Positions 4,913 to 63,998 of a DNA stretch of 64,000 bases are shown here, piece by piece. Both the position numbers and the translations under genes were made by a program. Each line of letters begins with the position of its first letter. The first letter of the stretch is position 1. Source of the stretch: Pontibacter lucknowensis (GTDB lineage: Bacteria; Bacteroidota; Bacteroidia; Cytophagales; Hymenobacteraceae); NCBI RefSeq assembly GCF_900156415.1, contig NZ_FTNM01000003.1:434001-498000 (forward strand), in the 5' to 3' direction. The notes below the pieces were generated by a model. That model was not told the origin of the DNA. It was given only the letters and a program-made list of their open reading frames with translations, and did not search any database.

Positions 4913-4954
4913 CCAGTGCGCGGGCAGGTCGCCCGGCGCTCTATACCTGAATCT

Positions 4955-6097
4955 ATGTCATTTTCGTCATTAGGCCTTTCGGCACCACTGCTTCGTTCCA
5001 TTCAAGAGCAAGGCTATACAGCTCCTTATCCTATACAGACACGGGCTATACCTGCCATTCTGAAAGGAAAGGACCTGTTAGGTATAGCCCAGACCGGCTC
5101 CGGCAAGACGGCTAGTTTCGCGTTGCCTATACTGGAGCTATACCAGCAGAAGCAGGCCGGCCGTAACCGCTATGTGCGCACGCTGGTGCTGGTGCCGACA
5201 CGCGAACTGGCGGTACAAATCGAAGAGGTGTTCAGAGCATTCGGTAAAGGACTGGGCAGACCGGTGAAGACGCTGGCCGTGTATGGTGGCATCTCGATCA
5301 ACCCGCAGATGATGAAGCTAAGCGGTACAGATGTGCTCGTTGCCACGCCTGGCCGACTGCTCGACCTGATCGAAAACAAAGCAGTGCACCTTTCAGAGGT
5401 AGAAACGCTGGTGCTCGATGAGGCAGATAAAATGCTGAATCTGGGGTTTCAGGAGGAGGTGAACAAGCTGCTCGGCATGTTGCCAGCCGGGCGGCAGAAC
5501 CTCCTGTTCTCAGCTACATTGAGCCAGGATGTGGAGGATCTGATCAGCAAACTGCTGACGGACCCGGTGCGGGTAACCGTGCAGGAGGAAGCCACGGTGC
5601 CGGAACTGATCAAGCAGGTAGCCTACCAGGTAGATCCTGAGAAGAAAGGGCCGCTGCTGCGTTACCTGATCCGGCAGCACGACATGCAGCAGGTGCTGGT
5701 ATTTGCTTCGTCCATCCGTACGGCTGATAATGTGGTGGGTAAACTCAAAAAGCACGGAATTGAAGCCGCTGCTTTTCACGGTGACAGAAGCCAGGGCGGC
5801 AGAACGGAGGCGCTTCGTCAGTTCAAGGCGGGCAAGCTCCGCGTACTGGTCGCCACCGATCTGGCCTCACGAGGTATAGACATCAAGTTCCTGCCTTATG
5901 TGATCAACTACGAACTGCCGCGCTCTCCTAAAGACTATGTGCACCGGATCGGGCGTACAGGCCGTGCCGAAGCCTCCGGCGAAGCCATTTCGCTGATCAC
6001 ACCGGAAGATGCCCATCACTTTAAAATCATCCAGAAAAAAATGGGAGTGAGGGTGGAGGTGCTTCCTACAGGCGAAATTGAACTGCAGGGACAGTAA
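4955..6097 (+). CDS. DEAD-box ATP-dependent RNA helicase, RhlE-like
   Basis: Unwinds RNA duplexes with ATP, typically in ribosome assembly or cold-adapted RNA turnover. The 380-residue core has the Q motif (FSSLGLS and PIQTRAIP), Walker A AQTGSGKT (K51), PTREL, TPGRL, the DEAD box at 155-158, SAT, and the C-terminal HRIGRTGRA arginine-finger motif. There is almost no extension beyond the two RecA domains, whereas many RhlE proteins carry a basic tail. The ATG at 4955 was chosen because the upstream in-frame TTG at 4910 lies inside the -7 promoter element. The gene ends at a strong shared terminator. Confidence 0.93.
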   Translation: MSFSSLGLSAPLLRSIQEQGYTAPYPIQTRAIPAILKGKDLLGIAQTGSGKTASFALPILELYQQKQAGRNRYVRTLVLVPTRELAVQIEEVFRAFGKGLGRPVKTLAVYGGISINPQMMKLSGTDVLVATPGRLLDLIENKAVHLSEVETLVLDEADKMLNLGFQEEVNKLLGMLPAGRQNLLFSATLSQDVEDLISKLLTDPVRVTVQEEATVPELIKQVAYQVDPEKKGPLLRYLIRQHDMQQVLVFASSIRTADNVVGKLKKHGIEAAAFHGDRSQGGRTEALRQFKAGKLRVLVATDLASRGIDIKFLPYVINYELPRSPKDYVHRIGRTGRAEASGEAISLITPEDAHHFKIIQKKMGVRVEVLPTGEIELQGQ

Positions 6098-6165
6098 GGT
6101 ATAGGTATAAACTTAGCAGGTAATGCGAACCACAGGTACAGCCACAAAGCTTTAGCTTCATTTTT

Positions 6166-6209
6166 AAACAAAGCGCCCTTTCTGCTTTAACAGAAAGGGC
6201 GCTTTGTTT
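6166..6209. terminator. Bidirectional rho-independent terminator
   Basis: A perfect 19-bp inverted repeat (arms 6166-6184 and 6191-6209, 6-base loop) is centred on GCGCCCTTTCTG and flanked by A-run and T-run on the two sides. It sits between the convergent helicase and GH13 genes and can end transcription in both directions. Confidence 0.93.
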
Positions 6210-6212
6210 GCT

Positions 6213-7880
6213 CTAGCTCTTCTTGAGCAGATGACTTAAGTCACCGGTCCGGAACCAGCGATAGCCGTAGGCATCGAGCGTAATATAGTGTTTACCCTTC
6301 TCGTCAGCTTCGCTTTCATAGTTCACCATCAGGTCGATCAGCTTTTGCTCTTTTTCTTTTTGACCGTTTTGCTTTTGCTTTAAGTCTAAAATTACCTCGT
6401 GTGCTTTTTCATCGAAGTTGTGCAGGATGATCAGGGAGCTGCCTTGCCAGCTGTAGTGCATGCAGAGTACCTTCGGTTTGTTTGTTTTCAGGATTTGCCA
6501 ATCCCCAAAGCCAATCTCGGTACACTCCTGCCTTAGGCGGATCAAGGCTGTCATCCAGTTTAGAAGTGAATCCGGTTCACGGCGCTGGTTCTCTACATTC
6601 ACATGGTGATAAGAGTAAGGACCTTTGTCAATGACAGGATGCACCAGTTTGTCTGCTTCGGAAAAGCCCGCTTGGTGGTCATCGGTCCATTGCATTGGTG
6701 TGCGCACGGCGTCCCGTTCATTCAGACTCAGGTCATCCCCCATGCCTATTTCATCGCCATAACGGATAACGGGAGTGCCCGGCAAAGAGAACATCAGGCT
6801 ATAAGCTAACTCACTTTGCTGGCGGTTTCCCAGCATAGTAGAAAGACGACGGCGGATGCCCCGATCGTAAAGCTGCATGTCTTTATCCGGGGCGAAACGG
6901 GCAAATACCTTTTCACGCTGTTCATCGGTTAGGCGACCCAGGTCCAGTTCGTCGTGATTGCGCAGGAAGTGGGCCCACTGCACCGTTGCCATGTGGGTGC
7001 GTGTTTCTTCCAGGGCCTCCACCAGAGGCTCTATTTCGCCGGTAGCCAGGGCGTAAAACAGGTGCTGGTTCACATAAAAGTTGAACATCATCTGAATGCC
7101 ATCCCCTTTATCACCGAAGTATTTTTTAGTTTCCTCAGGGAGTACGTTAGCTTCGCCCAGCAGAATAGCATCCCCACGCCGCCATTGCAGAAAGCGTCGC
7201 ATGTCACGCAGGTAATCGAAGTTTAATTCATGATTATCTGAACCCGGTACGGGCGACTCGATCATAAAAGGCACAGCATCTACCCTGAAGCCACATACCC
7301 CTAATTGCAGCCAAAAGCCCATGATGCGCTGAATCTCTTCACGCACTTTGGGATTGTCCATGTTAAGATCGGGCTGAAATTCGTAGAAGCGGTGGAAATA
7401 CCAGGACTTCGCTTTCTTGTCGTACGTCCAGGTAGAGTCCTGCACCCCCGGGAACACCATGCCCTCGTCCCAGTCAGAAGGCTTCTTTTTAGACCATACA
7501 TACCAGTCGCGGTGCTCGGCATCTTCGCTGCTGCGGGCATCCTGAAACCAGGGGTGCTGGTCGGAGGTATGGTTCACCACCAGATCGATGATGACCTTGA
7601 TGCCGCGCTTATTGGCCTGGTGCATGAACTCGACAAAGTCACCGCTGGAGCCGTGCCGTTGATCGACACCATAGTAATCGTACACATCGTAACCATTGTC
7701 CTTGTTGGGGGTGGGTTGGAAGGGGGCTAGCCAAACACAGTCGATGCCCATAGCGTTGAGGTAATCAAGGCGGCGGGCCAGACCTGCGAAGTCACCCACG
7801 CCATCGCCGTTCAGGTCCATGAACGTTTCAAGATCGAGGCTGTAGATGATAGCATTTTTGTACCAGAGCTCTTCAAGCAT
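6213..7880 (-). CDS. GH13 alpha-amylase family protein, TreS-like
   Basis: The 555-residue protein has a complete GH13 (beta/alpha)8 domain closest to trehalose synthase and oligo-1,6-glucosidase types: DLNGDGVGDF near residue 22, [10 protein letters not shown] near 102, nucleophile D201 in GFRVDAVPF, the acid/base glutamate in LLGEANV, and the third acid in [11 protein letters not shown]. TreS interconverts maltose and trehalose. Here the maltokinase domain found in the treS fusion at 53382 is absent, and the C-terminal beta domain has a Lys/Gln-rich insertion (near KQKQNGQKEKEQK). Whether it acts on trehalose, maltose or sucrose-like substrates cannot be read from sequence. It lies 83 bases after the GNAT gene on the same strand. 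Confidence 0.85.
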   Translation of the reverse strand: MLEELWYKNAIIYSLDLETFMDLNGDGVGDFAGLARRLDYLNAMGIDCVWLAPFQPTPNKDNGYDVYDYYGVDQRHGSSGDFVEFMHQANKRGIKVIIDLVVNHTSDQHPWFQDARSSEDAEHRDWYVWSKKKPSDWDEGMVFPGVQDSTWTYDKKAKSWYFHRFYEFQPDLNMDNPKVREEIQRIMGFWLQLGVCGFRVDAVPFMIESPVPGSDNHELNFDYLRDMRRFLQWRRGDAILLGEANVLPEETKKYFGDKGDGIQMMFNFYVNQHLFYALATGEIEPLVEALEETRTHMATVQWAHFLRNHDELDLGRLTDEQREKVFARFAPDKDMQLYDRGIRRRLSTMLGNRQQSELAYSLMFSLPGTPVIRYGDEIGMGDDLSLNERDAVRTPMQWTDDHQAGFSEADKLVHPVIDKGPYSYHHVNVENQRREPDSLLNWMTALIRLRQECTEIGFGDWQILKTNKPKVLCMHYSWQGSSLIILHNFDEKAHEVILDLKQKQNGQKEKEQKLIDLMVNYESEADEKGKHYITLDAYGYRWFRTGDLSHLLKKS

Positions 7881-7963
7881 AGCGAATCGGTTTTGGTTGG
7901 TTAAAACTTGATTCGTCTATACGGGAGAAAGCTTATGAAAGTCGGAGGGAAGCTTGAAAGGAG

Positions 7964-23994: not shown

Positions 23995-24081
23995 GGAGGG
24001 GTGGGTGAGTGGCTTAAACCAGCAGTTTGCTAAACTGCCGTACTGGAAACGGTACCGGGGGTTCGAATCCCCCCTCCTCCG
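23995..24081 (+). tRNA. tRNA-Ser (anticodon GCT)
   Basis: An 87-base class II tRNA with a long variable arm. The acceptor GGAGGGG pairs with CTCCTCC (one G-U), the anticodon stem GCAGT/ACTGC holds the loop TTGCTAA (anticodon GCT), and the T-arm is GGGGG-TTCGAAT-CCCCC. The discriminator is G and CCA is not encoded. Confidence 0.97.
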
Positions 24082-24109
24082 CAAGCGAAAAAAATAAATT
24101 GAAAAAGTT

Positions 24110-24139
24110 TTGACAATTTAAATTCTTCGCTTACTTTTG
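24110..24139 (+). promoter_or_regulatory. Promoter of tRNA-Pro
   Basis: TTG at 24110-24112, a spacer of exactly 19 bases and TACTTTTG at 24132-24139 match the Bacteroidota consensus best of all sites in the window. The tRNA begins 60 bases further on, implying a 5' leader of about 50 bases. Confidence 0.85.
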
Positions 24140-24199
24140 CACCGCGTTCAACATTAACAGCGACATCAAACATCGCTAACCGGAGTTGAAAGCACAGTT

Positions 24200-24273
24200 C
24201 GGGGTGTAGCGTAGCCCGGTATCGCGCCACATTTGGGATGTGGAGGTCGTAGGTTCGAATCCTGCCACCCCGA
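24200..24273 (+). tRNA. tRNA-Pro (anticodon TGG)
   Basis: 74 bases. The acceptor CGGGGTG pairs with CACCCCG, the anticodon stem CCACA/TGTGG holds the loop TTTGGGA (anticodon TGG), and the T-arm is GTAGG-TTCGAAT-CCTGC. The discriminator is A; CCA is not encoded. Confidence 0.97.
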
Positions 24274-24276
24274 CTT

Positions 24277-24308
24277 AAAAAATTTCGGAAGCAATTCCGA
24301 AATTTTTT
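24277..24308 (+). terminator. Hairpin terminator after tRNA-Pro
   Basis: A 14-bp perfect inverted repeat (24277-24290 and 24295-24308) ends in six T. It would separate tRNA-Pro from tRNA-Arg, or be read through. Confidence 0.8.
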
Positions 24309-24343
24309 GTTTAAGGGTAGAGCTAAGCTCTCCTAAGGACGCT

Positions 24344-24417
24344 GGTCTCGTAGCTCAGCTGGATAGAGCAACTGCCTTCTAAGCAGTAGGTCTTTGGTTC
24401 GAATCCAAACGGGATCA
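24344..24417 (+). tRNA. tRNA-Arg (anticodon TCT)
   Basis: 74 bases. The acceptor GGTCTCG pairs with CGGGATC (two G-U pairs), the anticodon stem ACTGC/GCAGT holds the loop CTTCTAA (anticodon TCT), and the T-arm holds GGTTCGAATCC. The discriminator is A; CCA is not encoded. A terminator follows directly. Confidence 0.97.
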
Positions 24418-24427
24418 CTTCAGTATC

Positions 24428-24800: not shown

Positions 24801-26624
24801 ATGAACGGAGACTCCAATAGTATTTCGGAAGACCTGCTTTCTAAACTGAAGGCGCTTATACCTGCTGCTTTTCATGGGAACAAGCTGGATGTAGCGCAGC
24901 TGAAGCAATTGCTGGGGGAGCACATTTATACAGCCCCGGAGGCCTACCAATTGACCTGGGCAGGCAAGGCAGAGGCCTATAAGCAAGTTCAGGAACCTTC
25001 GACCGATACACTTATACCTGTTTCGGATGCGTCAGTTAACTGGGATAAAACGAAGCATGTGTTCATCGAAGGGGATAACTCCAAAGTGCTGAAGGTGCTG
25101 CAGAAAGCTTATTCCGGGAAGGTAAAGGGGATCTATATTGACCCTCCATACAATACTGGTTCCGATAGCTTCATCTACGCTGATAACTTTGCTGGAAAAA
25201 ATGGCCGTTCTCAGTCCGACCGTAGGAAAAACGGCCATTCGAACTGGCTCAGTATGATGCTGACAAGGCTGTCGCTGGCCCGTCATCTGCTGCGTGAAGA
25301 CGGTGTTATTTTCGTGAGCATCGATGACAATGAATTGGCTAATCTGAAACTGGTGATGGACGAAGTGTTCGGGGAAGAGAACTTCATCGATTACTTTTCC
25401 TGGGCCAAGTCCGAAACGCCTGCTAACCTGAGCAGAAAGAGTAAAAAAGTAGTGGAGTATGTGCTCTGCTACCAAAAAAATAAGAACGGCGAGAAATTCA
25501 AGGGCATCAGGAAAAACAGCACCAGTTCCAACGGGCTGCTGAACCAGTCGAATAAACCGGGCATATTGACCTTCCCGGCAGATGTGGTTATTACGCGTCT
25601 GAAGGATGGCCTGCTACAGAAAGGCAGTTACGGAACGGACAGCTATGCCATTGAATTGCTCGAGGACACCGAGGTAAAGGACGGCGTGTTTGTAAAGCCT
25701 GTTGTATTGAAGGCTAAATTCAAGTGGTCGCAGCCGAAACTGGATGAAGAAATAAGCAAAGGTACCCGGATCAGTATACCTACGATCAAACTTAGTCCTT
25801 CTTATGAGAAGCTGGTGTATGACAAAGAGGTGCCGCCTAACCTGATCAATTCAAAGGTTGGCGTGGGTACAAACGAAAACGCCAGCGCCCAACTGGAAGC
25901 TCTGTTTGGAGCAAAAGTGTTTGACTTTCCGAAACCACCCAGCCTGATCAAGTACCTGCTAGGCTTCTCCGACGATCCTGATGGCATCTTCATGGATTTT
26001 TTTGCCGGTTCGGGTGCCACTGCCCAGGCCGTGCTCGAAATGAACCAGCAGGATGGCGGCAGCCGGAAGTACATCTGCGTGCAGTTGGATGAGCAGATCG
26101 CCCCAGCGACTAAAGCCTATCAGCTAGGCTTCAGAACCATCTCCGAGATTACCAGAAAACGATTGCTGTTGCTACATGAAAAAATGCAGGGACAGGAGGA
26201 GACGGAGGCCATCGACACAGGTTTCAGGTATTTTAAACTAGCCCCTTCCAGATTCAAAACCTGGCGTGGAGAAAATAGCAATGGTGCAAATGAGCATGCA
26301 AAACAGCTGACCTTATTTAAGCAGGTAGAAAAACAGAAAGAGCATTCAGAACACATGCTGTGGGAGTTGCTGCTCAGGTTCGGTATACCGCTGACAGCTG
26401 CCATAAACAAAGTGCCTGCCGGTGATACGATACTGTATGAGGTTGTGGAAGAAGGGCTCCTGTATGGGCTGGATAGGATCAATGAAGAAGTCCTTAGGAA
26501 AGCGATCGAGCTGAAACCCAAGGCCTTTATTTGTCCAGACTCGCTTTTCCAGCTGAACGAAATCTCCAGAACTAATTTACAACTAACCTTGCAGGACATT
26601 GGTATTGATTTTAAATCAATCTGA
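24801..26624 (+). CDS. DNA methyltransferase, type III Mod-like (beta class)
   Basis: The 607-residue protein has the catalytic motif D114-P-P-Y-N-T-G before the S-adenosylmethionine motif D399-F-F-A-G-S-G-A-T. This order defines the beta class of N6-adenine (or N4-cytosine) methyltransferases and matches Mod subunits of type III systems. The N-terminal helices (DLLSKLKALIPAAFHGNKLDVAQLKQLLG) are also Mod-like. The target-recognition region lies between the motifs at about 200-340. No large Res helicase-nuclease follows; instead a small PD-(D/E)XK-like gene starts 9 bases after the stop. The gene lies next to a tRNA cluster, a common insertion point for defence genes. Confidence 0.92.
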   Translation: MNGDSNSISEDLLSKLKALIPAAFHGNKLDVAQLKQLLGEHIYTAPEAYQLTWAGKAEAYKQVQEPSTDTLIPVSDASVNWDKTKHVFIEGDNSKVLKVLQKAYSGKVKGIYIDPPYNTGSDSFIYADNFAGKNGRSQSDRRKNGHSNWLSMMLTRLSLARHLLREDGVIFVSIDDNELANLKLVMDEVFGEENFIDYFSWAKSETPANLSRKSKKVVEYVLCYQKNKNGEKFKGIRKNSTSSNGLLNQSNKPGILTFPADVVITRLKDGLLQKGSYGTDSYAIELLEDTEVKDGVFVKPVVLKAKFKWSQPKLDEEISKGTRISIPTIKLSPSYEKLVYDKEVPPNLINSKVGVGTNENASAQLEALFGAKVFDFPKPPSLIKYLLGFSDDPDGIFMDFFAGSGATAQAVLEMNQQDGGSRKYICVQLDEQIAPATKAYQLGFRTISEITRKRLLLLHEKMQGQEETEAIDTGFRYFKLAPSRFKTWRGENSNGANEHAKQLTLFKQVEKQKEHSEHMLWELLLRFGIPLTAAINKVPAGDTILYEVVEEGLLYGLDRINEEVLRKAIELKPKAFICPDSLFQLNEISRTNLQLTLQDIGIDFKSI

Positions 26625-26633
26625 TGAAATGCA

Positions 26634-27200
26634 ATGCTGGTACAAAACTTCGACTTTGACGCTAACCTCGCCATAGCCCGGCAATGTGCGGCTGACATGG
26701 TCCGCAACGGCCTGTATTCCCGCTTTGGCCTTTCAGAGAAAGAGCGCCTCGAGAAGGCGGTGCTGGGATGCATGGGGGAGTACGCTTTCGAACATTGGCT
26801 TAAGTCCCTTGGCTATACCTACGAGGTTGATCGTGCCGGCTTCGAAAACAGGAATGCGGATGCGTTCGACTTTTTGATTGGCGGCTGTAAAATAGATGTG
26901 AAAGTTGCGAAGAAATCAACTGACAGGCCACCGAACGACAACTGGACCTATGGTTACCCGCAGGAGCAAAAGCCGGCTTCAAAAGATTATGTAATCGTAG
27001 GTTGGGTGGATTTTAGCAGAAAAGAAGTAGGGTATTATGGCTGGATAGCGGGTAAGGAAATCAGCAGATTTCCGGTGGTGACAAAGAATACCTTTGCCGG
27101 CTACAGCTACCGTACGCCTAACCACGAGTTTAAATGGGGAGCCTTGCACAAAAACTTCGAACGTTTCTTCCAAGGCGTTCTACAGAGCAAGGAAGCATAA
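26634..27200 (+). CDS. Putative PD-(D/E)XK nuclease, partner of the methyltransferase
   Basis: A 188-residue protein of no recognised named family. An N-terminal helix region contains GEYAFEHWLKSLG (E49, E53). A beta strand pair follows with D76/D79 in ADAFDFLIGG and D88-V-K90 in KIDVKVAKKS, which together resemble the E...D...(D/E)xK active site of restriction-endonuclease-fold enzymes. The C-terminal half is rich in aromatic residues and may bind DNA. It starts 9 bases after the methyltransferase stop and is surely co-transcribed. The likely role is the cleaving half of a two-gene restriction-modification system; the nuclease call is inference. Confidence 0.65.
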   Translation: MLVQNFDFDANLAIARQCAADMVRNGLYSRFGLSEKERLEKAVLGCMGEYAFEHWLKSLGYTYEVDRAGFENRNADAFDFLIGGCKIDVKVAKKSTDRPPNDNWTYGYPQEQKPASKDYVIVGWVDFSRKEVGYYGWIAGKEISRFPVVTKNTFAGYSYRTPNHEFKWGALHKNFERFFQGVLQSKEA

Positions 27201-29455: not shown

Positions 29456-29621
29456 CGTTCAGCTGATAAGGTTTGGTGTAAGAACAGGTATAGCTGCAAA
29501 GGTATAGGATATGGCAGAATAATGGCCCCTCAGGTGCTAAGTTTTGGGCAATTCCCTTTAGGCGGGCATTAAAAAGCCCGGCACGGTGGCCAGGCATTGG
29601 TTTAAGATAAGTTTGTTTTGA

Positions 29622-30547: not shown

Positions 30548-32952
<2,405 letters not shown>

Positions 32953-43954: not shown

Positions 43955-46674
43955 GCGTTTGAGGATGTTAAAAGTGCAACCGGGAAAGTCTTGAAAATCT
44001 CGGCCAAAGGTATAGACTGCTTTGCCTGCACCTGCTGTCCGCCAAAAAGCTGCTGCCAGTTTTGCGGCGCTTCGGCAGGAAGTTCCACCATCGTGTCACC
44101 CCACACCTGTTCGCCCAGTGGCAGTTCCTTTTCTGAGATGATGCTCGTGAGCAGACGCGGCACCACCACAATGCACCAGTTCTCTTCGTGGTGGCGGGCG
44201 AAGGCCATGGCATGGCGGCTGTGCTGGCCCTTTAATTTTAGCGGGATATAATCGCCCTCGTCGAAAAGTGATTTCAGCTCTTTGCGCAGGTGGAGTACCT
44301 GGTGCAGCAGGTATAGCTTCACGCGGGCATCGGTGGGGGAGGAGAGCAGCTCCTGCTGCAGCTCATCACCGTTTTCGTTGTGCTTTATTTCCTGCAAAAA
44401 TTGCTGTCGTTGCTCGTAATCCACAGGGCGGCGGTTGTCCGGATCTACCAGGCTGAAGTCCCAGAGTTCGCAGCCCTGGTATACATCGGGCACGCCCGGA
44501 CAGGTGGTTTTGAGGAGCGTCTGGCACAAGGAGTACAACCAGCCAAAATGAGCCGCCTTCTGGAAAAAGGGCTTGAAAGAAGCCATGAAGTCCTTGTCTT
44601 CCTGCAGCAGTTGCTGCACCAGATTTTTGACCGATGTTTCATAGGCTTCATTTGGCTCCGACCAGTTGGTGTTGATCTTGGCCTCCCGGAAAGCCTTCAC
44701 GAGGTACTCCTGAACCCGTTCCACCAAGGTATCGTCCACCTTGCCGTCGATCGGCATCACGCCCAGCAGGGTTTGCAGGATGAAGTAGAGGTCGTTTGCT
44801 GTCGGTCTGTCGGATTTGCTATGCTTCCGTGCCAGTTGCATCCAATCCTGCGCATTTTTCTCCCACTCTTCCGGCAGCTCACTCAGCACCTGCAGGCGCA
44901 TACGGGAGCCTTCGCCGCGTTTAGTATCGTGCGTGGCCGTGGCGTTGATGGAGTGCGGATAGGTTTGCATGCGGTATTGCATGCGCTCATGGAAATCACG
45001 GCGGTCGAGATTGAACACATCCGGACTGTTTCCCACTTCGTTGAGCGCCAGCAGGCGGTTGTAGTTGTAGAAGGTGGTGTCTTCCACACCCTTCGCTGCC
45101 AGCGGACCTGTAAACTGCTGACTGCGCATCACGAAGTATAGCTTTTCTCGCTTTAGTTCTTCGCTGTCCTGCTCACCTGACTCAAACAAGGTGCGCAGGT
45201 GTTCCAGCTCGGTTTTGACCTCAGGTGCTTTTTCATGGGCAATGGCTAAAGCTTTGCCCACCACTTCCATGGCCCCGGACGGCAGCGGGAAGGTATGGCC
45301 GTATATGCGGTATACCGGGAAGGAGGCCAGCAGTGTAGCCAGGGCATGATGCCAGTTTTTATCTTCTGACGAAGCAGGTATAAGTTCACAATCACGCAGC
45401 AGACGCATCAGGTTTTGCAGTTCGCCCTGCATGTAGTTTTCGAGTATCAGCAGCTTCTTTTCGTACACCAGCTTTTCGTAGTCGAGAGGGGCGTCGGGCA
45501 CCAGACGGTGGTAGATGTCGGTAAGCTTTTTCTCACCCTCAGCGTCGGTATAGAGGTTACTCACCCAGGCCAAAAAATCGTAGCCGCTGTTGCCTTCTAT
45601 TGGCCAGTAGTCGGGCATGTTTTCTTCCCCTTCCAGAATTTTCTCCACCACCAGGTATACCTGTTCGCCTGCCAGTTCGCGAAGTCGCTCCAGGTAGGTA
45701 TCCGGGTCAAAAAGGCCATCGACATGATCTACCCGCAGCCCCTGCACCAGTTGCCGCATGCAGAGCTCCTTGATAAACTGATGGTAATGATGAAACACCT
45801 CCTCCCGCTCCATGGCCGTGCAGATCAGGTCGTTGACCGTGAAGAAGCGGCGGTAGTTGATACGCTTCTCTGTTTCCTGCCAGTGACTCAGAATATAATA
45901 TTGCTGCCGGAGCAGTTCCTGAAGGGCTGTCTTGTCCTCGTTTATACCTCGTAGTACATCGGCTATACCTTGCTTTACTGCAGAATGATCTTGTGCAATC
46001 TGGTAGAGAGCCTGTTTCGCCTGCTCCCAATCGTTAGGCTCCAGCCTGTCGTGCGACATTAATTGCTCCAGCTTTTGCACCTGCTCCGTTAGTGCTGCGC
46101 TGGCTTCTGAAGAATTGAGCTTTTCGGCTACGCGCTCCAGCAGGAAGGTATAGCTGTCGATGCTGATTGGGTAAATATTGTCGAAGTAGTGTAGCCGGAA
46201 ACCCTGTTCATCGAAACTGAGCTTAAGCTGCCCCTGCTTGACCACTTCCTGCAGAGGCTCTCCCAGGAAGGGTACCATTAGTTGGCCCTTAAAGTCAGGA
46301 TGGTTGAAGTTGACATCGAAGAAGGTATAGAAGCGCGACTTCTGGCCTTTTTCCAGCACGTCCATCAGCCAGGCATTGTTCGGGTGAAAGGCCATGTGGT
46401 TTGGCACGATGTCCTGCAACCAGCCCATGCCATGTGCTTTCAGTTCGTCTGCTATCGCCTGTAATTCTTCCATGGTGCCCACATCGGGGTTGAGCTGGTG
46501 CGGATCCGTCACGTCATAGCCGTGCTCACTGCCGGGACGGGCCGTGAAAAAAGGCGCAGCATAGATGGTGCTGATGCCCAGGTCCCGCAGGTAGGGGAGT
46601 ATATTTTTCAGGTCCTTCAGTTTAAACTTCGGAGACAGTTGTAGTCTGTATGTAGAGGAAGGTATGTATACCAT
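43951..46674 (-). CDS. treY: Malto-oligosyltrehalose synthase
   Basis: GH13 enzyme that turns the reducing end of a maltodextrin into a trehalose unit by an intramolecular shift. The 907-residue protein begins with the TreY signature (PSSTYRLQLSPKFKLKDL), has HGMGWLQDIVPNHMAF, nucleophile region GLRVDHVDGLFDP, acid/base region LVVEKILEGEE, and the TreY-specific GNSGYDFLAWV and THDTKRGEG. It is longer than typical bacterial TreY (700-800) through insertions in the middle. It lies 65 bases after the GH57 gene. Confidence 0.96.
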   Translation of the reverse strand: MVYIPSSTYRLQLSPKFKLKDLKNILPYLRDLGISTIYAAPFFTARPGSEHGYDVTDPHQLNPDVGTMEELQAIADELKAHGMGWLQDIVPNHMAFHPNNAWLMDVLEKGQKSRFYTFFDVNFNHPDFKGQLMVPFLGEPLQEVVKQGQLKLSFDEQGFRLHYFDNIYPISIDSYTFLLERVAEKLNSSEASAALTEQVQKLEQLMSHDRLEPNDWEQAKQALYQIAQDHSAVKQGIADVLRGINEDKTALQELLRQQYYILSHWQETEKRINYRRFFTVNDLICTAMEREEVFHHYHQFIKELCMRQLVQGLRVDHVDGLFDPDTYLERLRELAGEQVYLVVEKILEGEENMPDYWPIEGNSGYDFLAWVSNLYTDAEGEKKLTDIYHRLVPDAPLDYEKLVYEKKLLILENYMQGELQNLMRLLRDCELIPASSEDKNWHHALATLLASFPVYRIYGHTFPLPSGAMEVVGKALAIAHEKAPEVKTELEHLRTLFESGEQDSEELKREKLYFVMRSQQFTGPLAAKGVEDTTFYNYNRLLALNEVGNSPDVFNLDRRDFHERMQYRMQTYPHSINATATHDTKRGEGSRMRLQVLSELPEEWEKNAQDWMQLARKHSKSDRPTANDLYFILQTLLGVMPIDGKVDDTLVERVQEYLVKAFREAKINTNWSEPNEAYETSVKNLVQQLLQEDKDFMASFKPFFQKAAHFGWLYSLCQTLLKTTCPGVPDVYQGCELWDFSLVDPDNRRPVDYEQRQQFLQEIKHNENGDELQQELLSSPTDARVKLYLLHQVLHLRKELKSLFDEGDYIPLKLKGQHSRHAMAFARHHEENWCIVVVPRLLTSIISEKELPLGEQVWGDTMVELPAEAPQNWQQLFGGQQVQAKQSIPLAEIFKTFPVALLTSSNA

Positions 46675-53366: not shown

Positions 53367-53381
53367 AACCGAAAAAACTAT

Positions 53382-56300
53382 ATGGCAGAAGACAACACCC
53401 TTCTCGACGACAACATTCACTGGTACAAAGACGCCATCATCTACGAGCTGCACATCAAGGCCTTCATGGATGGGAACGGCGACGGCATTGGCGACTTTAA
53501 GGGGCTCATGCAGAAGCTCGACTATTTGGAAGAGCTGGGCGTAACCGCTATCTGGCTATTGCCTTTCTACCCATCGCCGCTCAAAGACGACGGCTACGAC
53601 ATTGCCGACTACTTCAGCATCAATCCGAGCTACGGCACCATGCAGGATTTCAAGCTGTTTGTGAAGGAAGCGCACCGTCGGGGGCTCAAGGTCATCACCG
53701 AGCTGGTCATCAACCACACTTCCGACCAGCACCCCTGGTTCCAGCGGGCACGTCGCGCCAAGAAGGGCTCCAAACACCGCGACTTCTATGTGTGGACCGA
53801 TGACCCGACCCAGTACAAGGATGTGCGCATCATCTTCACCGACTACGAACCGAGCAACTGGACCTGGGACCCGGTGGCGGGCCAATACTACTGGCACCGC
53901 TTTTTCCATCACCAGCCCGACCTGAACTACGACAATCCGGAGGTGCAGAAAGAGGTGTTCAAGACCCTGGACTACTGGTTCGACATGGGTGTGGATGGCT
54001 TCCGTCTGGATGCCGTACCCTACCTGTTTGAGCGCGACGGCACCAACTGCGAAAACCTGCCAGAGACACATGAGTTCCTGAAAAAGCTCCGGGCGCATGT
54101 CGACAAAAAATACGAAGGCAAGCTCTTGCTGGCCGAGGCGAACATGTGGCCAGAGGATTCTGCCTCTTACTTTGGTGATGGCGACGAGTGTCACATGAAC
54201 TACCACTTCCCGATCATGCCGCGTCTGTTTATGTCCGTGAAGATGGAGGACCGTTACCCGATCATCGACATCTTCGACCAGACGCCAGCTATACCGGAAA
54301 CCTGCCAGTGGGCCATGTTCCTGCGCAACCACGACGAACTGACGCTCGAGATGGTGACTGATGAGGAACGGGACTACATGTACAAGGTATACACCCGCGA
54401 TCCGCTCGCCAAGATCAACCTGGGTATACGCCACCGCCTGGCACCGCTGCTGGGCAACGACCGTGCGAAGATTGAGCTCATGAACGTGCTGCTCTTCTCC
54501 ATGAAAGGAACACCGGTAGTGTACTATGGCGATGAGATCGGTATGGGCGATAACTACTACCTGGGTGACCGCGACGGCGTTCGCACCCCGATGCAGTGGA
54601 ACGACAACCGCAATGCCGGCTTCTCCACTGCCAATCCGCAGAAGCTATACCTGCCTGTGATCATCGACCCGGAGTACAAGTACGAGTCGGTGAACGTGGA
54701 CACGCAGCAGCACAACGCCAACTCGCTGCTCTGGTGGATGCGCCGCATCATCAACATGCGCAAGCGTTACAAAGCTTTCGGCCGTGGCGAGATTCGCTTC
54801 CTGAACCCGTCCAACGCCAAAGTGCTGGCCTTTGTGCGCTCTTACCAGGACGAGAACATCCTGGTGATTGCCAATCTGTCGCGCTTCCCGGAGGCGGTGG
54901 AACTGGACCTGCCGGAGTTCAGAGGCTACGTGCCGGTGGAGGTGTTCAGCAAAAACAAATTCCCGCAGATAAAAGAGGATAGCTATGTGCTCACGATGGG
55001 CGCGCATGGCTATTACTGGTTCGAGCTGCAACCACAGGAAGTGAGCGGTCGCGAAGGCCTCGACATGAAGAAGCCTGCCATGCAGCTGCCAACACTCAGC
55101 CAGCCTATACCTGCGCGGGCGCTTAAAACGCTTGAGAACAAACTACTGCCGCCTTATGTGATGAACCGCCGCTGGTTCGGTGGCAAGGCCCGCACGATAC
55201 AGCGCATGCAGGTGGTGAACAACATGCCGATGACGGCAGGTCGCTTTGCAGCGTCACTGCTGTTTATAGAAGTGAGCTACAACGAAGGTTTGCCGGAACT
55301 GTACCAGCTACCGATCGCCTTTACCAGCGGTGAACAGGAAGAAGAACTCATTGCCAGTCAGCCGAACAGTGTGATTGCCCGCCTGACCATGGATGGAAAA
55401 GAAGGCATCCTCTACGACGCTGTTTACTCCGAGGACTACCGCCAGCTCTTGCTCAACCTGATGGCCAAACGCAAGAGCATCAAAGTGGACAGTGCTGAGT
55501 TAGTGGGTACGGGTAGCCGTTCTATCGCCGCCAAGATCAAAGAAATCGGGCATCCGCTTTCTTCCAAAATACTTGGGGCCGAGCAAAGCAATACTTCGGT
55601 GCTGTATGACAACCAGTTCTTTCTGAAGGTATACCGCAAACTCGATCGCACCCTGAATCCGGATGTGGAGATTGTGCAGGCGCTCACGGACAAGAATTTC
55701 CCGAACGTGCCGATGTACCTGGGCTCAGTGGAGCATGAAGAGGACGGCAAACCGCCGATGGTGCTCGTGATGCTGCAGGAGCTGGTGCCGAACCAGGGCG
55801 ATGCCTGGGTATACATGGAGGATTCGCTCAAGCGATTCTTTGAGAGACTGCAGACGCACAAGGAGCATATTGAGCAGATTGACACCACGGGCACATTGGC
55901 ACGTCCGGTGCCGTTCTCGGAAGCGCCGGAGCACATGCAGTTGCAACTTGGCGGTGCCTCAGTAGAGCGCATCGAGTTGCTCGGTCAGCGCACAGCCGAG
56001 ATGCACCTGGCGTTGGCCGACATGGTCACCTCGAAGGACTTTGCACCGGAGGACTTCTCCCTGCACTATCAGCGATCGCTTTACTCGTCTCTTACCTCAC
56101 TCGTACGCAGCAATTTTGACAGCTTGCGCAAGCACCTGTCTAACCTGCCGGACGCTGTGCGGGCTGAAGCCGAAGAAGTGCTGCAAATGCGTCAGGAGGT
56201 GCTCGAGCGACTCAAAATGATCTTCCGCCGCAAGATCGACACGATGAAGATCCGCACCCATGGCGACTACCACCTCGGACAGGTGCTGTTCACAGGCCGC

Positions 56301-56714
56301 GACTTCATCATCATCGACTTCGAAGGGGAGCCAGCCCGTTCGTTCAGCGAACGCAGGCTGAAGCGCTCTCCGCTACGTGATGTGGCCGGTATGATCCGCT
56401 CTTTCCACTATGCCGCTTACAATGCGTTGTTTCAGCAGGACAGCTTCCGCAAAGAAGATGGCGACTACCTCGAGACTTGGGCTGAGCAGTGGTACCACTA
56501 TGCCAGCGGCTTCTTCATGCATACCTACCTGGGTATAACCCAAGGGACAGGCGTGGTGCCGCAAAACGAGGAAGACGTAGAAGTGCTGATGGAGACCTTC
56601 CTGTTGGAGAAGGCGATTTATGAATTGGGATATGAACTGAACAACCGTCCGGATTGGGTGCTCATCCCGATCAGGGGCATAAAGTACATCATGAGGAAAT
56701 ATCAGAATGGCTAA
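53382..56714 (+). CDS. treS: Trehalose synthase fused to maltokinase
   Basis: The 1110-residue bifunctional protein turns trehalose into maltose and then phosphorylates it. Residues 1 to about 560 form TreS (GH13_16) with nucleophile D210 ([11 protein letters not shown]), acid/base E252 (LLLAEANMW) and D318 ([11 protein letters not shown]). Residues about 590-1110 form the maltokinase (Pep2) with [11 protein letters not shown], catalytic base D962 ([10 protein letters not shown]) and metal-binding D979 ([10 protein letters not shown]). The fusion delivers maltose 1-phosphate directly to GlgE encoded upstream. Its stop overlaps the glgB start by eight bases. Confidence 0.97.
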
Positions 56715-59073
56715 GAAAAAGGAACAGGAGAACACACAGCAGAACCCGATGGCGGGAACAGGTATGGAAACCGGTGCCGGCGCGGCCATGAACGATGGCA
56801 CGGATACAAAAAAATCCGGAGGCAGAAAGAAAAGCAAGCAAGACGAAGGGATAGCCACCGTGGAAGTGCAGTCAGGAGCGGCTGCGGCTCCTGCCAAAAG
56901 GGGAAGACCGCGTAAATCGGACACTTCCGAAATGGGAGAGGCAGCGCAGGAGGTGATGGTGAAGCCGAAGCGGGGTCGTGCAGCTGCAGCCAAGGCTACC
57001 ACAACAGAGGCGACGGCTGCAACTACTGAAACAAAACCAAAACGAGGCAGGTCCGCCAAATCGGCAACGCAGCAACAGGAGGCAGAAGCGCAGAAGACGG
57101 GCTTGTCTACCACGCCTGCACCCGTGATGGAGCAGCCGAAGCAGGAGCAGACCGGACCGGTTTATTATGACATCAGCCGCCTGTCAGAGTTTGATATCTA
57201 CCTGTTCCGCGAAGGCCGTCACTTCAACCTATACGAGAAGCTGGGCTCGCACCTGATGGAGCGACAGGGTACCAAGGGCGCTTACTTTGCGGTATGGGCC
57301 CCGAATGCTGAGCAGGTTTCGGTGATGGGCGACTTCAACTCATGGAACCGCGAAAGCCACCAGCTACAGGCAAGGGCTGATGGCTCGGGCATATGGGAAG
57401 GCTTTGTGCCGGATGTGCAGGCAGGGATGCTGTACAAGTACCATATCCGGTCGCGCTATCACATGTACCATGTTGAGAAGAGCGACCCCTTTGCGCTGCG
57501 GCGTGAAAAGCCGCCGCAAACTGCCTCGGTTGTGCACGAGTTGCACCATACCTGGCAGGACGACAGTTGGCTGGAGCAGCGCAAGTCGCGCCATGGCCAG
57601 CCGCAGCCGTATTCGGTTTACGAACTGCACGTGGGTTCCTGGCGTCGCAAGCCCGAAGACAACAACCGTCCGCTGACCTACCGCGAGCTGGCTGAGGAAC
57701 TGCCGGCTTATGTCAAGAATCTGGGCTTTACGCATGTAGAGTTCATGCCCGTGATGTACCATCCGTTCAGTGGATCCTGGGGTTACCAGATTACAGGTTA
57801 CTTTGCAGCGGCCAGTATCTACGGTTCACCGGAAGACCTCATGTGCCTGATCGATGCGCTACACCGCGAAGGCATTGGCGTGATTATGGACTGGGTGCCC
57901 TCGCACTTCCCGTCTGACGAGCACGGCCTGGCCTATTTCGACGGTACGCACCTGTTTGAGCACGCCGATCCACGCAAAGGCTATCATCCGGACTGGAACA
58001 GCTACATTTTCAACTACGGTCGCAACGAGGTGCGTTCTTTCCTGATCAGCAACGCGCTATTCTGGCTCGACAAGTACCATGTGGATGGTTTACGAGTAGA
58101 TGCCGTGGCATCGATGCTATACCTGGACTACAGCCGCAAGCATGATGAATGGATCCCGAACGAATTTGGCGGGCGTGAAAACCTGGAAGCGATTTCTTTC
58201 CTGAAAGACTTTAACCATGCCGTGCATGAGCAGTTCCCGGATACCTTGACCATTGCCGAAGAATCCACGGCCTGGCCGCAGGTGACAGGCAAAGTAGAGG
58301 ATGGCGGACTGGGCTTCGATATGAAGTGGATGATGGGTTGGATGCACGACACGCTGACCTACTTTTCCAAAGATCCGATTTACCGCAGACACCACCAGGG
58401 CGATATTACTTTCAGCATCATCTATGCTTTCAGCGAACGATTCATGCTGCCGCTATCCCACGATGAGGTGGTGCATGGCAAAGGCTCCCTGATCCGGAAG
58501 ATGCCGGGCGATGAATGGCAGGCATTCGCGAACCTGCGGGCGCTCTATACCTACATGTACGCGCATCCGGGTGCCAAACTGCTGTTTATGGGTGGTGAAA
58601 TCGCCCAGAGCAGCGAGTGGAACCACGACAGCAGTCTGGACTGGCACTTGCTGGAGTATAAATACCATGCAGGTATACAGGAGCTTATCCGCGCCCTGAA
58701 CCATACCTACCGTGAGCAGCCAGCCCTCTATAGCAAAGCCTTTGATCCGTCAGGTTTTGAGTGGATCGACTTTAACGATGCGCATAACAGTGTGATGAGT
58801 TTCCTTCGCAAAGGCGAACGACCCGAAGACCAACTGTTGGTAGTTTGCAATTTCACTCCTGGCGTGCACGAGCAGTATCGCTTAGGTGTACCAACCGGTG
58901 GCAACTGGGTGGAGGTGTTCAACAGTGATGACGGCCATTTTGGTGGCAGTAATTTCCACAACCACGGATCGTTGCAGGCTAAACCTGATTCCTTCCACGG
59001 ACATGATTACTCTGTCGTGCTGAAGTTGCCGCCGATGGCCGTGGTGTATTTTAAGTATCAGCCAGGGGCGTAA
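56707..59073 (+). CDS. glgB: 1,4-alpha-glucan branching enzyme with AT-hook-like N-terminal tail
   Basis: Introduces alpha-1,6 branches into the glucan made by GlgE. The enzyme proper begins near residue 150 with [16 protein letters not shown], has a CBM48 ([22 protein letters not shown]), nucleophile D465 ([15 protein letters not shown]), acid/base E518 (TIAEEST) and [12 protein letters not shown]. The first 145 residues or so are an Ala/Lys/Thr/Gln-rich disordered tail with three basic GR motifs: KRGRPRK near residue 62, KPKRGR near 87 and again near 112. The first is a textbook AT-hook core. The tail is unusual for GlgB. Confidence 0.95.
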
Positions 59074-59846: not shown

Positions 59847-59880
59847 GTTTTGGTTTATCCTTTGGCAAATGTGTAAGCTG

Positions 59881-60963: not shown

Positions 60964-61092
60964 AAGCTATAAACAGTCAGGTTTAACGTCCTGTGAACGC
61001 CTCTCACATACGCTTATTCAGCAAGATGGGTATTTCCTGCCAGGTAAATGCTTCTGTGTCAGGAGGGGATTTTATTTAATAGAAAAATGACT

Positions 61093-61171
61093 ATATAGTT
61101 AAAACGTGCATGCAACTATATCCGTATGATATAAAGACTGCCTGTACCACAAGTAGGCAGAGAATTTTTTT
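61093..61171 (+). promoter_or_regulatory. Inverted repeats upstream of otsAB
   Basis: ATATAGTT (61093-61100) and AACTATAT (61114-61121) form an 8-bp dyad with a 13-base gap, a possible operator. CTGCCT (61138-61143) and AGGCAG (61155-61160) form a hairpin followed by AGAA and seven T, so it may be a terminator or attenuator 76 bases before the otsAB start. Confidence 0.4.
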
Positions 61172-61246
61172 GAATCCGGACACTGAATGCTGTTGGACCA
61201 CACCCTGGGCCAGCAGCTGCAGAAGCCTGACATAAGGTATAATCAC

Positions 61247-63454
61247 ATGGCAAAATTGATTATTGTATCAAACCGACTCCCTGTAAAGCTACAGGAAAGC
61301 GAAGGTCGGCTTGATTTTAAACCGAGTGAGGGAGGCCTCGCAACGGGGTTAGGCTCTATCTACAAAAAGAAGAACAACCTTTGGATTGGCTGGCCTGGCA
61401 TGGTAGTCGAAGATGAATCGCAACAGCAGCAAATTATCGACAACCTGAACGGGCAGAACATGCACCCGGTCTTTCTTTCAGACAAAGAGATAAAAGAGTT
61501 TTACGAGGGCTTCAGCAACGAAACGCTGTGGCCTACTTTCCACTACTTCAGTCAGTACGCCATCTACGAGCAGCAGCTTTGGGAAACCTATGTAGAGGTA
61601 AACCAGAAGTACTGCGACGAGCTGGTGAAAGTGGCCGAGCCAGACGACACCATCTGGGTACATGACTATCAGTTGCTGTTGCTGCCTTCTATGCTGCGCG
61701 AGAAACTACCGGGTAGCACCATTGGCTTCTTTCAGCACATTCCTTTTCCATCGTATGAGGTATTCCGCCTCCTGCCCTGGCGCAAAGAACTGCTGGAAGG
61801 CATGCTGGGCTCCGACCTGATCGGCTTCCATACCTACGACGACATGCGCCACTTCCTGAGCTCCGTCAACCGACTGGTAGGCCACGGCAGTACGCATGGC
61901 TGGATCAACACCGGCAATCGATCCCTGCTTGTCGACTCTTTCCCAATGGGGATAGACTATGAAAAGTATGAGCAGACGGCTGAAAGTGATGAGGTTAAAA
62001 AGCGGGAAAAGATTTACCGTAATAACCTGCACTCTAAAAAGATAATACTTTCCATCGACCGCCTGGACTACTCCAAAGGTATACCGCAGCGCCTACTAGC
62101 ATTTGAGCTGTTTTTGGAGCGCTACCCGGAATTTCACGAGAAGGTGACGCTGGTGATGCTGGTGGTGCCATCACGCGATGCCGTGGAGAAGTATAAAGAG
62201 CTGAAAGAGGAGGTGGATGAACTGGTAGGCCGTATAAATGGCAATTACAGCCACATGAACTGGAACCCGATCCAGTATTTCTACCGCTCTTACCCACTGG
62301 AGACGCTTTCTGCCTTCTATCGCATGGCCGATGTGGCGCTGGTAACACCCATGCGCGACGGTATGAACCTGGTGTGCAAGGAGTATGTGGCAAGTAAGCT
62401 CGACCAGAAAGGAGTGCTGATCCTGAGTGAAATGGCGGGTGCTTCGAAGGAGCTTTCAGAGGCCTTGCTCATTAACCCGAACGATATCAACCAGATGGTA
62501 GAGACGCTGCATACGGCCCTGACCATGCCGGAAGATGTGCAGCAGCAGCACATGCGACACATGCAGGAGTCGCTGCGCAGGTATAACATCCACCATTGGG
62601 TGAGCATGTTCATGGACCGCCTGTCTTATGTGAAGATCAAGCAGCTGTCCATGGCTACGACCTACCTCGACGAGGCGACTTACCAGGAGCTCAGCAATTC
62701 CTACGAAGAGGCAAGCTCCCGCCTGTTCTTCCTGGAGTATGACGGCGCCCTGGTAGACTACCATAACCGTCCGCTCATGGCCGCCCCTGACGAAGACCTG
62801 CTGGAACTGTTGCAGGTGCTGAGCAGCAACTCTAAAAACCGGGTGGTTGTGATTAGCAGCCGGGAAAAGGACAACATGCAGCGCTGGTTGGGTCATCTCA
62901 ACATCGACCTGATAGCAGAGCACGGCGTCTGGATAAAACAGCGCGGCACCGGCTGGCAAACCATGACCAGCCTGATCGATGACTGGAAGAGTGATATCCG
63001 CCTGATTCTGGACCTGTATGTGGACCGCACGCCTGGCTCGTTTATCGAAGAGAAGGAATACTCGCTGGTTTGGCATTACCGTCGCGTAGAGACGGGTCTG
63101 GGTGAGTTGCGTGCCCGTGAACTCGTGAGTCACCTTAACTTCCTGGCCACTAACAGCAATCTGCAGGTGCTCGATGGACAAATGGCCGTGGAGATCAAGG
63201 CCCAGGAGGTGAGCAAAGGCAAAGCGACCAGTTACTGGCTCAACATGTACCCCCACGACTTCGTGCTGGCCATTGGCGACGACTGGGGTGATGAGGATAT
63301 CTTTAAGGCTATGCCGCGAGAGGCCTATACCGTCAAGATCGGGAATACGCACTCCGTTGCAAAGTATCACCTCGACAGCTGCGAAGAAGCCCGCAAACTC
63401 CTGTCACGGCTGATCGGGCTGAAGCAGAAAAAGCTTCCGAAAGAATTGTTGTAA
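61247..63454 (+). CDS. otsA: Trehalose-6-phosphate synthase fused to a trehalose-phosphatase-like domain
   Basis: The 735-residue protein has a GT20 OtsA domain at residues 1 to about 470 (IIVSNRLPV, WIGWPG, WVHDYQLLLLP, IGFFQHIPFPS, SIDRLDYSKGIPQRL, TPMRDGMNLVCKEYV), which makes trehalose 6-phosphate from UDP-glucose and glucose 6-phosphate. An OtsB-type HAD domain follows (VVVISSREK, LIAEHGVWI, IGDDWGDEDIF). HAD motif I reads L-E497-Y-D-G-A-L instead of L-D-Y-D-G-T-L, so the phosphoryl-accepting Asp is replaced by Glu and the Thr by Ala. Phosphatase activity is therefore doubtful. The ATG at 61247 is chosen because MAKLIIVSNRLPV is the standard N-terminus. Confidence 0.95.
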   Translation: MAKLIIVSNRLPVKLQESEGRLDFKPSEGGLATGLGSIYKKKNNLWIGWPGMVVEDESQQQQIIDNLNGQNMHPVFLSDKEIKEFYEGFSNETLWPTFHYFSQYAIYEQQLWETYVEVNQKYCDELVKVAEPDDTIWVHDYQLLLLPSMLREKLPGSTIGFFQHIPFPSYEVFRLLPWRKELLEGMLGSDLIGFHTYDDMRHFLSSVNRLVGHGSTHGWINTGNRSLLVDSFPMGIDYEKYEQTAESDEVKKREKIYRNNLHSKKIILSIDRLDYSKGIPQRLLAFELFLERYPEFHEKVTLVMLVVPSRDAVEKYKELKEEVDELVGRINGNYSHMNWNPIQYFYRSYPLETLSAFYRMADVALVTPMRDGMNLVCKEYVASKLDQKGVLILSEMAGASKELSEALLINPNDINQMVETLHTALTMPEDVQQQHMRHMQESLRRYNIHHWVSMFMDRLSYVKIKQLSMATTYLDEATYQELSNSYEEASSRLFFLEYDGALVDYHNRPLMAAPDEDLLELLQVLSSNSKNRVVVISSREKDNMQRWLGHLNIDLIAEHGVWIKQRGTGWQTMTSLIDDWKSDIRLILDLYVDRTPGSFIEEKEYSLVWHYRRVETGLGELRARELVSHLNFLATNSNLQVLDGQMAVEIKAQEVSKGKATSYWLNMYPHDFVLAIGDDWGDEDIFKAMPREAYTVKIGNTHSVAKYHLDSCEEARKLLSRLIGLKQKKLPKELL

Positions 63455-63475
63455 ATAGGTTATAGTGAAACAAGT

Positions 63476-63512
63476 AAGCCCCGGCTGTTTTAGAACAGTC
63501 CGGGGCTTTTTG
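63476..63512 (+). terminator. Terminator of otsAB
   Basis: AAGCCCCGG (63476-63484) pairs with CCGGGGCTT (63500-63508), with an inner CTGTT/AACAG stem, then a T-run. Confidence 0.92.
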
Positions 63513-63531
63513 TATCTGATAGAGGTATAGG

Positions 63532-63738
63532 CTACTTCTGCGACTGGTTATCCGTTTTTCGACTATACCTGCGATAGCTGAAAACCAGTGAAATCAGTAC
63601 CAGTATATTGGCCACCAATCGCATATATACATGCTGGTTGGGTACAGAGCTCAGCGAATCCGTAAAGTCAATGTTCGTCACATTGTAAACGATCAAGCCT
63701 ATCAGCAGGATGATCAGCACGAGGGCAAATTTCTTCAT
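63532..63738 (-). CDS. Small two-helix membrane protein
   Basis: Not recognised. The 68-residue protein has two transmembrane helices (about 3-21 and 41-58) and a basic C-terminal tail (RRYSRKTDNQSQK). It starts 17 bases after the xseB stop on the same strand and is likely co-transcribed with it. Small proteins of this kind are often found beside xseB in Bacteroidota, without known function. Confidence 0.7.
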   Translation of the reverse strand: MKKFALVLIILLIGLIVYNVTNIDFTDSLSSVPNQHVYMRLVANILVLISLVFSYRRYSRKTDNQSQK

Positions 63739-63755
63739 GGGCTGGTTGGCTATAC

Positions 63756-63998
63756 CTACTGAAACAAAGTACCACTGCCTGCACTTCCTTTCTCAGACTT
63801 CGAAGCCGGCTCTTCGCAGTTCTCCTCATTGAACACCTGGTTAATTGCGTTTTCGGCATTGCGCAGCTTGTCTTTGCAGAATTTGATCAGTAGGGAAGAG
63901 CGCTGCACCTTTTGGGTAAGTTCGTCCACATCCACAGAGTCGCTTTCAATGGCCCGCAGAATCTCCTCCAGTTCCTGGGTGGCCTCGCGGTAAGTCAT
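63756..63998 (-). CDS. xseB: Exodeoxyribonuclease VII small subunit
   Basis: The 80-residue protein matches XseB: TYREATQELEEILRAIESDSVDVDELTQKVQRSSLLIKFCKDKLRNAENAINQVF is the usual antiparallel two-helix coiled coil, followed by a short acidic/Ser-rich tail. Together with XseA it degrades single-stranded DNA. XseA would be expected just beyond the right window edge. The ATG is 3 bases from the edge; the start matches family length. Confidence 0.93.
   Translation of the reverse strand: MTYREATQELEEILRAIESDSVDVDELTQKVQRSSLLIKFCKDKLRNAENAINQVFNEENCEEPASKSEKGSAGSGTLFQ

Follow-up and report, generated by a model that had tools for sequence, protein, structure and literature searches.

An octamer with clade-specific spellings across Pontibacter genomes is a candidate DNA uptake sequence

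To our knowledge, DNA uptake sequences are established only in the Pasteurellaceae and the Neisseriaceae, both of which have type IV pili. The uptake signal sequence (USS) of the Pasteurellaceae has informative AT-rich flanking segments and works with a type IV pilus machine, and HIP1 of cyanobacteria is a palindromic octamer, GCGATCGC. Among the Bacteroidota, transformation of Riemerella anatipestifer needs ComEC, DprA, ComF, and RecA together with proteins unlike the known uptake machinery (PMC8459023), and R. columbina is reported to favor its own DNA over R. anatipestifer and E. coli DNA in competition (PMC7965970). Here we analyzed a 64,000-nucleotide stretch of Pontibacter lucknowensis, referred to as the window (positions 434001–498000 of contig C12 in a 4.47-Mb genome of 19 contigs), through which the octamer AGGTATAG recurs on both strands. 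The word is abundant, its sites are maintained, its dialects follow the tree of the genus, and competence core genes are present in the genus. With moderate confidence, we propose that AGGTATAG is the dialect in which this clade spells a DNA uptake sequence that would be used across most of the genus via a pilus-independent pathway.

Counted on both strands, the window contained 58 copies of AGGTATAG/CTATACCT, 29 on each strand, the first at 4941 and the last at 63750–63757. The first-pass annotation, made by eye, had given exactly this count, strand split, and pair of end positions. It had also claimed an excess over random expectation, and this was borne out: a second-order Markov model predicted 1.9 copies, and 100 dinucleotide-preserving shuffles of the window yielded a mean of 0.88 and a maximum of 4, none of them reaching 58. 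The observed frequency is thus far higher than the Markov-expected one. Near copies were enriched as well (AGGTATAC, 19 versus 3.2 expected; AGGTATAA, 18 versus 2.2 expected), and the commonest 10-mer was CAGGTATAGC (23 copies versus 0.24 expected), in agreement with the near copies and the longer form noticed at first pass. In the whole genome, AGGTATAG occurred 3808 times (1903 forward and 1905 reverse) versus 109 occurrences of the reversed word (51 and 58). A short, non-palindromic word in genome-wide and strand-symmetric excess is what an uptake sequence should look like. No paper on AGGTATAG as a bacterial genome word was found among the literature matches listed.

The surroundings of the word were characterized over a longer stretch of 464 kb (C12:34001–498000; 410 copies). 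Information was restricted to about 11 positions, [C/A]AGGTATAG[C][c], and the flanks, out to 40 bases on either side, carried almost no information and no shared sequence. The palindromic extension AGGTATACCT was present in just 14 copies, AGGTATAG itself not being self-complementary. Spacing was clustered (standard deviation/mean, 1.6), as exemplified by three copies within 75 bases at 29433–29507 on the plus strand. Opposed neighbors less than 40 bases apart made up 7 of 409 pairs, too few for the word to be a terminator element. Window positions 1–4940 are free of AGGTATAG and form part of a 10.8-kb gap (C12:428139–438940), which holds biotin-synthesis–like genes, named by eye from their translations with no family search. 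The longest motif-free gap was an island of 27.7 kb (C12:102063–129736) with a GC content of 37.9% versus 50.3% overall; it contained no copy, where the density elsewhere in the stretch (410 copies over 436 kb) would predict about 26, no dialect of the word was prominent in it, and by eye its genes were of the polysaccharide type. Over-represented 12-mers in the 464 kb included ACTCGCGGGACG, present eight times with copies on both strands, and CCCCTACCCCCA, present seven times; these are perhaps small repeat elements.

According to 355 crude gene models from our own scoring of open reading frames (ORFs), which rendered 79.5% of the 464 kb coding, the copies of AGGTATAG comprised 111 in sense and 193 in antisense orientation within genes, 98 between genes, and 8 that fell on a gene edge. 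Every permitted reading frame and intergenic DNA carried copies, and the earlier description of a word found in genes on both strands, between genes, and in several frames therefore stands. A bias was seen among the sense copies: 92 of the 111 shared one frame, and 8 lay in the frame that puts TAG in frame and is barred for that reason. This would suit an origin from codon usage or protein constraint. When synonymous codons were shuffled within genes (30 rounds), however, only 5.5 sense and 11.7 antisense copies remained on average, about 17 of the coding total of 304, so that codon-pair bias in one frame, which like a Markov-expected frequency would have refuted the first-pass claim, does not account for the word. 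The flanks share no sequence and the dialects described below recur across many separate assemblies, which speaks against transposition or a composition artefact. Together, the shuffling, frame, flank, and assembly tests already refute this whole group of explanations.

Next, we compared the window genome with 400 kb of a congener, G017; the alignment covered 316 kb of the window genome, at a mean identity of 81.5%. As many as 196 of 278 AGGTATAG sites were identical in G017, versus 25% for all octamers and 22% for permuted octamers, and sites were kept in coding (158/233) and non-coding DNA (38/45; non-coding background, 26%). This comparison with a related species, proposed at first pass, leaves the mutational hot-spot product suggested there hard to fit, since sites are held at 70% versus 25%. 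In a ranking by z of the 2717 octamers that aligned 20 or more times, the two most conserved were CAGGTATA (198/280), a one-base shift of AGGTATAG, and AGGTATAG itself, followed by GCTATACC (132/179). Tolerated variants were kept as well (AGGTATAC, 85/126; AGGTATGG, 46/71; AGGTATAA, 57/100; GGGTATAG in part, 27/54). One-base variants of the core with at least 12 copies were at or below background (AAGTATAG, 5/20; AGGCATAG, 1/14; AGGTGTAG, 0/12; AGGTAAAG, 2/23; AGGTACAG, 5/23). Of 132 G017 sites unmatched in the window genome, 66 were one base off there, the commonest class, indicating that substitution rather than insertion gives rise to new sites. Both traits, build-up through substitutions and maintenance at orthologous positions, are expected of uptake sequences.

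We then examined 50 genomes of the genus, the window genome (G000) included. Thirty-nine were rich in a related octamer: 12 in AGGTATAG, 20 in AAGTATAA/G, five in AACTATAG, and two (G027 and G033) in a mixture. The other 11 (G002, G007, G024, G025, G026, G028, G034, G064, G067, G068, and G069) were poor in the word or lacked it. In 20-kb stretches of 40 congeners, the top octamer belonged to the family (AGGTATAG, AAGTATAA or a one-base shift, or AACTATAG) in 31 and not in nine (G002, G007, G022, G024, G026, G028, G034, G064, and G068); whole-genome counts were consistent with these stretches and added further genomes. The dialect labels of G059 and G063 come from 20 kb alone and those of G016, G019, G022, G023, G029, and G035 from whole-genome counts alone; G065, in which ARSTATAR recurs about once per 250 bases, was labeled AACTATAR by subtracting one whole-genome count from another. 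In seven of the poor genomes (G002, G007, G024, G025, G034, G064, and G069), the perfect word was in 2- to 5-fold and one-mismatch words in 1.2- to 1.6-fold excess, possibly relics of a lost motif or an effect of composition. In a 400-kb stretch of G004 (C8:160001–560000), AAGTATGG was enriched (150 versus 21 expected); it matches AGGTATGG, a conserved variant of the window dialect, and position 7 of the word seems to accept G.

The gene gyrB (30994–32952, plus strand) served as the anchor for the congeners' sequence and as the marker for the genus tree. It places the genome in the Bacteroidota, the best named records among the matches listed being a Bacteroidetes metagenome bin (80% protein identity), Hymenobacter roseosalivarius (79%), and a Cytophagaceae bin (78%). 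In the gyrB tree, the AGGTATAG genomes formed a single clade with an ultrafast bootstrap of 100, and the AACTATAG genomes fell within another clade, with the two mixed genomes (G027 and G033) interspersed or adjacent; deep support was weak, 37 to 69 at many nodes. The dialect labels of 47 genomes required 6 Fitch changes on this tree, whereas none of 1000 shuffles of the labels needed fewer than 18. Thus, three dialects and mixed genomes are arranged by clade around a common core, as would be expected of an uptake sequence, and AAGTATAA is widespread and probably the older form. Dialects of a AGGTATAG-type octamer within a genus are new here. Within the AAGTATAA/G dialect, relatives' sites were kept at 31–72% in 16 target genomes besides G022, versus a background of 16–30%, in about 20 kb per genome and in pairs that are not independent.

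Outside the genus, 56 genomes of five other genera of the family showed no comparable enrichment, ARSTATAR never exceeding the reversed pattern by more than a factor of about 1.4. The count of AGGTATAG alone stayed near its control in the 22 genomes examined from the order's other families, and no octamer of the AGGTATAG family was prominent in the 75 named gyrB loci of at least 8 kb (80 loci less five that were shorter). Two other octamers stood out among individual loci, ATCATTTA in an 11-kb locus of an uncultured Prevotellaceae (L093; 13 copies versus 0.1 expected) and CCATAGAC in L101 (14 versus 0.8 expected), and each may be a tandem repeat.

Genes for ComEC, DprA, and a ComEA-like protein with two helix-hairpin-helix stretches were found in all 50 genomes; the genus therefore has the competence core that an uptake sequence calls for. 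The comEC and dprA matches were stop-free in 48 genomes, the exceptions being G022 and G009; the ComEC frame of G018 was shorter (561 versus about 700 aa), with a match free of stops. G022 is assembled as a single contig. Stops and a frameshift interrupt both its comEC (L357) and its ComEA-like gene (L358), and its dprA match (C1:4158575–4159168) contains two TAA. This joint loss suggests that ComEC, the ComEA-like protein, and DprA act in one pathway. The neighborhood of comEC in the window genome was also scanned by eye, and no obvious competence partner was seen there.

G022 can be regarded as a natural knock-out of this pathway. Among 21 genomes tabulated, it had the lowest ratio of perfect word to control (11.5; others, 15–54) and the highest ratio of one-mismatch to perfect excess (1.10; others, 0.51–1.01); the table omits the mixed G027 (1.25) and the AACTATAG genomes, whose ratios are higher (1.25 to 4.58 among those omitted) because their second spelling is itself scored as a one-mismatch word. 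Site conservation pooled across gyrB loci was 7/33 in G022, the lowest of 17 targets. In a larger pool, 67 of 200 sites were kept in G022 versus 126 of 199 in G004, although this pool mixes loci, many of them from the broken comEC region; by locus, the G022 values were 0/20 for gyrB, 6/13 for the HHH_3 locus, 7/23 for the PF00437-hit locus, and 48/132 for comEC. These results lend weak support to the uptake interpretation.

In the mechanism that we propose, a surface or periplasmic DNA-binding factor would favor fragments carrying the word. Such fragments would enter by a pilus-independent Bacteroidota route, consisting of the ComEA-like helix-hairpin-helix protein, ComEC, DprA, and RecA, and would recombine into the chromosome. 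Biased uptake would then spread and repair the word in lineages retaining the factor, and a one-base shift in the preference of the factor would cause a genome to gain the new spelling slowly, giving rise to dialects and mixed genomes. We favor uptake because a word needed at thousands of separate sites should not be respelled twice in one genus; such respelling, we infer, suits drive more than a site-by-site cellular function, and the reader of the word would accordingly be one that acts in uptake. The likeness to uptake sequences drawn at first pass has been strengthened by the tree-ordered dialects and the site conservation. We give about even chances to the fuller proposal of pilus-independent, sequence-specific uptake in one Cytophagales-type genus, in which some exported factor would read an ARSTATAR-type word and would, on two or more occasions, have shifted its specificity by one or two bases, with thousands of sites per genome rewritten each time.

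Several observations weigh against an uptake sequence. A search for PF00437, the type IV pilus/type II secretion ATPase family, in the 50 genomes returned only short matches of about 60 residues or less, which we read as P-loops and which were just above the cut-off in three genomes; 13 of 14 control genomes were above it. The established kind of uptake-sequence machinery therefore seems missing by this search, in which pilins and secretins were not included, and a type IV pilus route was dropped. DUF5689, found in the DNA binder proposed for Riemerella and considered here as a receptor by analogy, was absent from the window genome, patchy in the genus (22/50), and unrelated to the motif, and nine of its loci inspected by eye had SusCD-like surroundings or encoded very long proteins; neither search thus found a receptor for the word. 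Transformation in this genus was not found in the literature searched, and the Riemerella study reports only A+T-rich k-mers and no clear word (PMC7965970). Motif-poor congeners also retain ComEC and DprA, which are therefore no predictor of the motif. In G009, comEC is interrupted by a stop and dprA by a frameshift, yet the motif counts are among the strongest; the damage may be an error, since the draft assembly comprises about 100 contigs and its methyltransferase gene has a stop as well. In G022, per-locus conservation falls within the range of intact relatives, and core one-mismatch words show no excess (1.32 versus 1.34 of expectation). Sites are unshared across dialects: 3 of 21 window-genome sites were identical in G004 and one reads AAGTATAA, and none of 33 G004 sites was identical in the window genome, in a comparison that rests on few data because of poor synteny with G004. 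Scarcity in recently acquired DNA would be expected of an uptake sequence, and the 27.7-kb island is in keeping with it, but DNA unaligned to G017 held 122 copies over 147 kb, a density of 0.83 per kb (0.98 if the island is set aside), versus 288 over 317 kb (0.91 per kb) for aligned DNA. This comparison is blunt because unaligned DNA includes rearranged shared DNA. Finally, the copies are clustered and seldom form inverted pairs.

The main rival, which we judge unlikely but worth keeping in play, is a HIP1-like site for an intracellular DNA-binding protein that functions in nucleoid organization, replication, or repair, each site being selected. It would explain a dense, strand-symmetric word in coding and intergenic DNA with 196 of 278 sites conserved, and it gains from the failure of the PF00437 and DUF5689 searches to reveal an uptake receptor and from DNA unshared with G017 that is not generally word-poor. 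Thousands of individually needed sites are, however, a poor match for dialects, mixed genomes, and sites unshared between them, for the 11 of 50 genomes of the genus with little or no word, and for a 27.7-kb island without it. The likeness to HIP1 drawn at first pass is itself weakened, since HIP1 is palindromic and AGGTATAG is not; the nucleoid role proposed with it survives within this rival.

Less probable still is an origin or renewal of the word through biased mutation or conversion, driven by a DNA methyltransferase or by site-directed mismatch repair; such a process would likewise yield conservation and clade-wide dialects. The window does contain a gene for an N6/N4 DNA methyltransferase (PF01555; 24801–26624, plus strand). 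Eight congeners of the AGGTATAG clade have an orthologue of 77–92% identity close to gyrB, but none was found in G011 or G003, which share the dialect, and G016 gave a partial 53% match; outside the clade, matches had at most 53% identity and were mostly partial, and 29 of the 50 genomes were without a match. Since its presence does not track the motif, this enzyme was rejected as the cause of the word, and with it the earlier methyltransferase-site idea as far as the window enzyme is concerned. In addition, most one-base neighbors of the word are near expectation, without the clear depletion expected from conversion. A Chi-like or FtsK-guiding polarity sequence (KOPS) could be a non-palindromic octamer in thousands of copies, as here, but Chi and KOPS sequences are strongly strand-biased along the replichore, and the polarity of AGGTATAG is nearly nil, 226 versus 184 over the 464 kb despite a GC skew that keeps one sign throughout; this explanation is very improbable.

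The remaining features of the window concern other functions. A tRNA cluster (23995–24418) is followed, at 24801–27200, by the methyltransferase gene and then a 188-aa ORF without a Pfam match. Trehalose/glycogen genes encode TreY (43951–46674), TreS with maltokinase (53382–56714), GlgB (56707–59073), and a trehalose-phosphate synthase/phosphatase (61187–63454).

If the uptake interpretation is true, Pontibacter would provide a third, independent case of uptake sequences, in a phylum that transforms by other machinery, and sequence-tagged DNA exchange would have arisen anew. The preference for own DNA reported in another Bacteroidota species (PMC7965970) could then also be explained at the level of words. 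The dialects would give a comparative handle on the receptor, which would be expected in 39 species and to differ among the three dialect groups. If uptake fails as an explanation, what is left is a well-resolved, non-palindromic HIP1-like word, for which species without it or with another spelling serve as natural experiments.

Like HIP1, the Pontibacter word is a very dense octamer within and between genes; it differs in being non-palindromic and respelled between related species. Riemerella has in common with Pontibacter its phylum, ComEC, DprA, a periplasmic helix-hairpin-helix protein, and unusual outer-membrane steps (PMC8459023, PMC7965970, PMC8383284). It belongs to the Flavobacteriaceae, however; the DUF5689 surface protein that is essential in R. 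anatipestifer is absent from the window genome, and the k-mers given for Riemerella as candidate uptake sequences (PMC7965970) are A+T-rich runs at about 2–8 times base-composition expectation, whereas the Pontibacter word is sharp. The Pasteurellaceae USS is similarly an over-represented genome-wide word, explained by biased uptake acting as molecular drive (PMC1939737), but the Pontibacter word holds no information beyond its roughly 11 bases. In the Neisseriaceae, the type IV minor pilin ComP serves as the reader of the DNA uptake sequence (DUS), whereas the 50 genomes here yielded no PilB/PilT-type ATPase, and inverted pairs are rare in the Pontibacter word. Since the pilus machine was searched for and not found, we do not file the word as a DUS member, and a DUS-like mode of action is putative. 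The Neisseriaceae DUS nevertheless offers the closest parallels: an abundant short word in thousands of copies, clade dialects a few bases apart around a fixed core, a two-dialect genome, and relatives without the word (PMC3630211). In its abundance, maintenance, one-base dialects, and mixed genomes, the Pontibacter octamer resembles the pattern described there.

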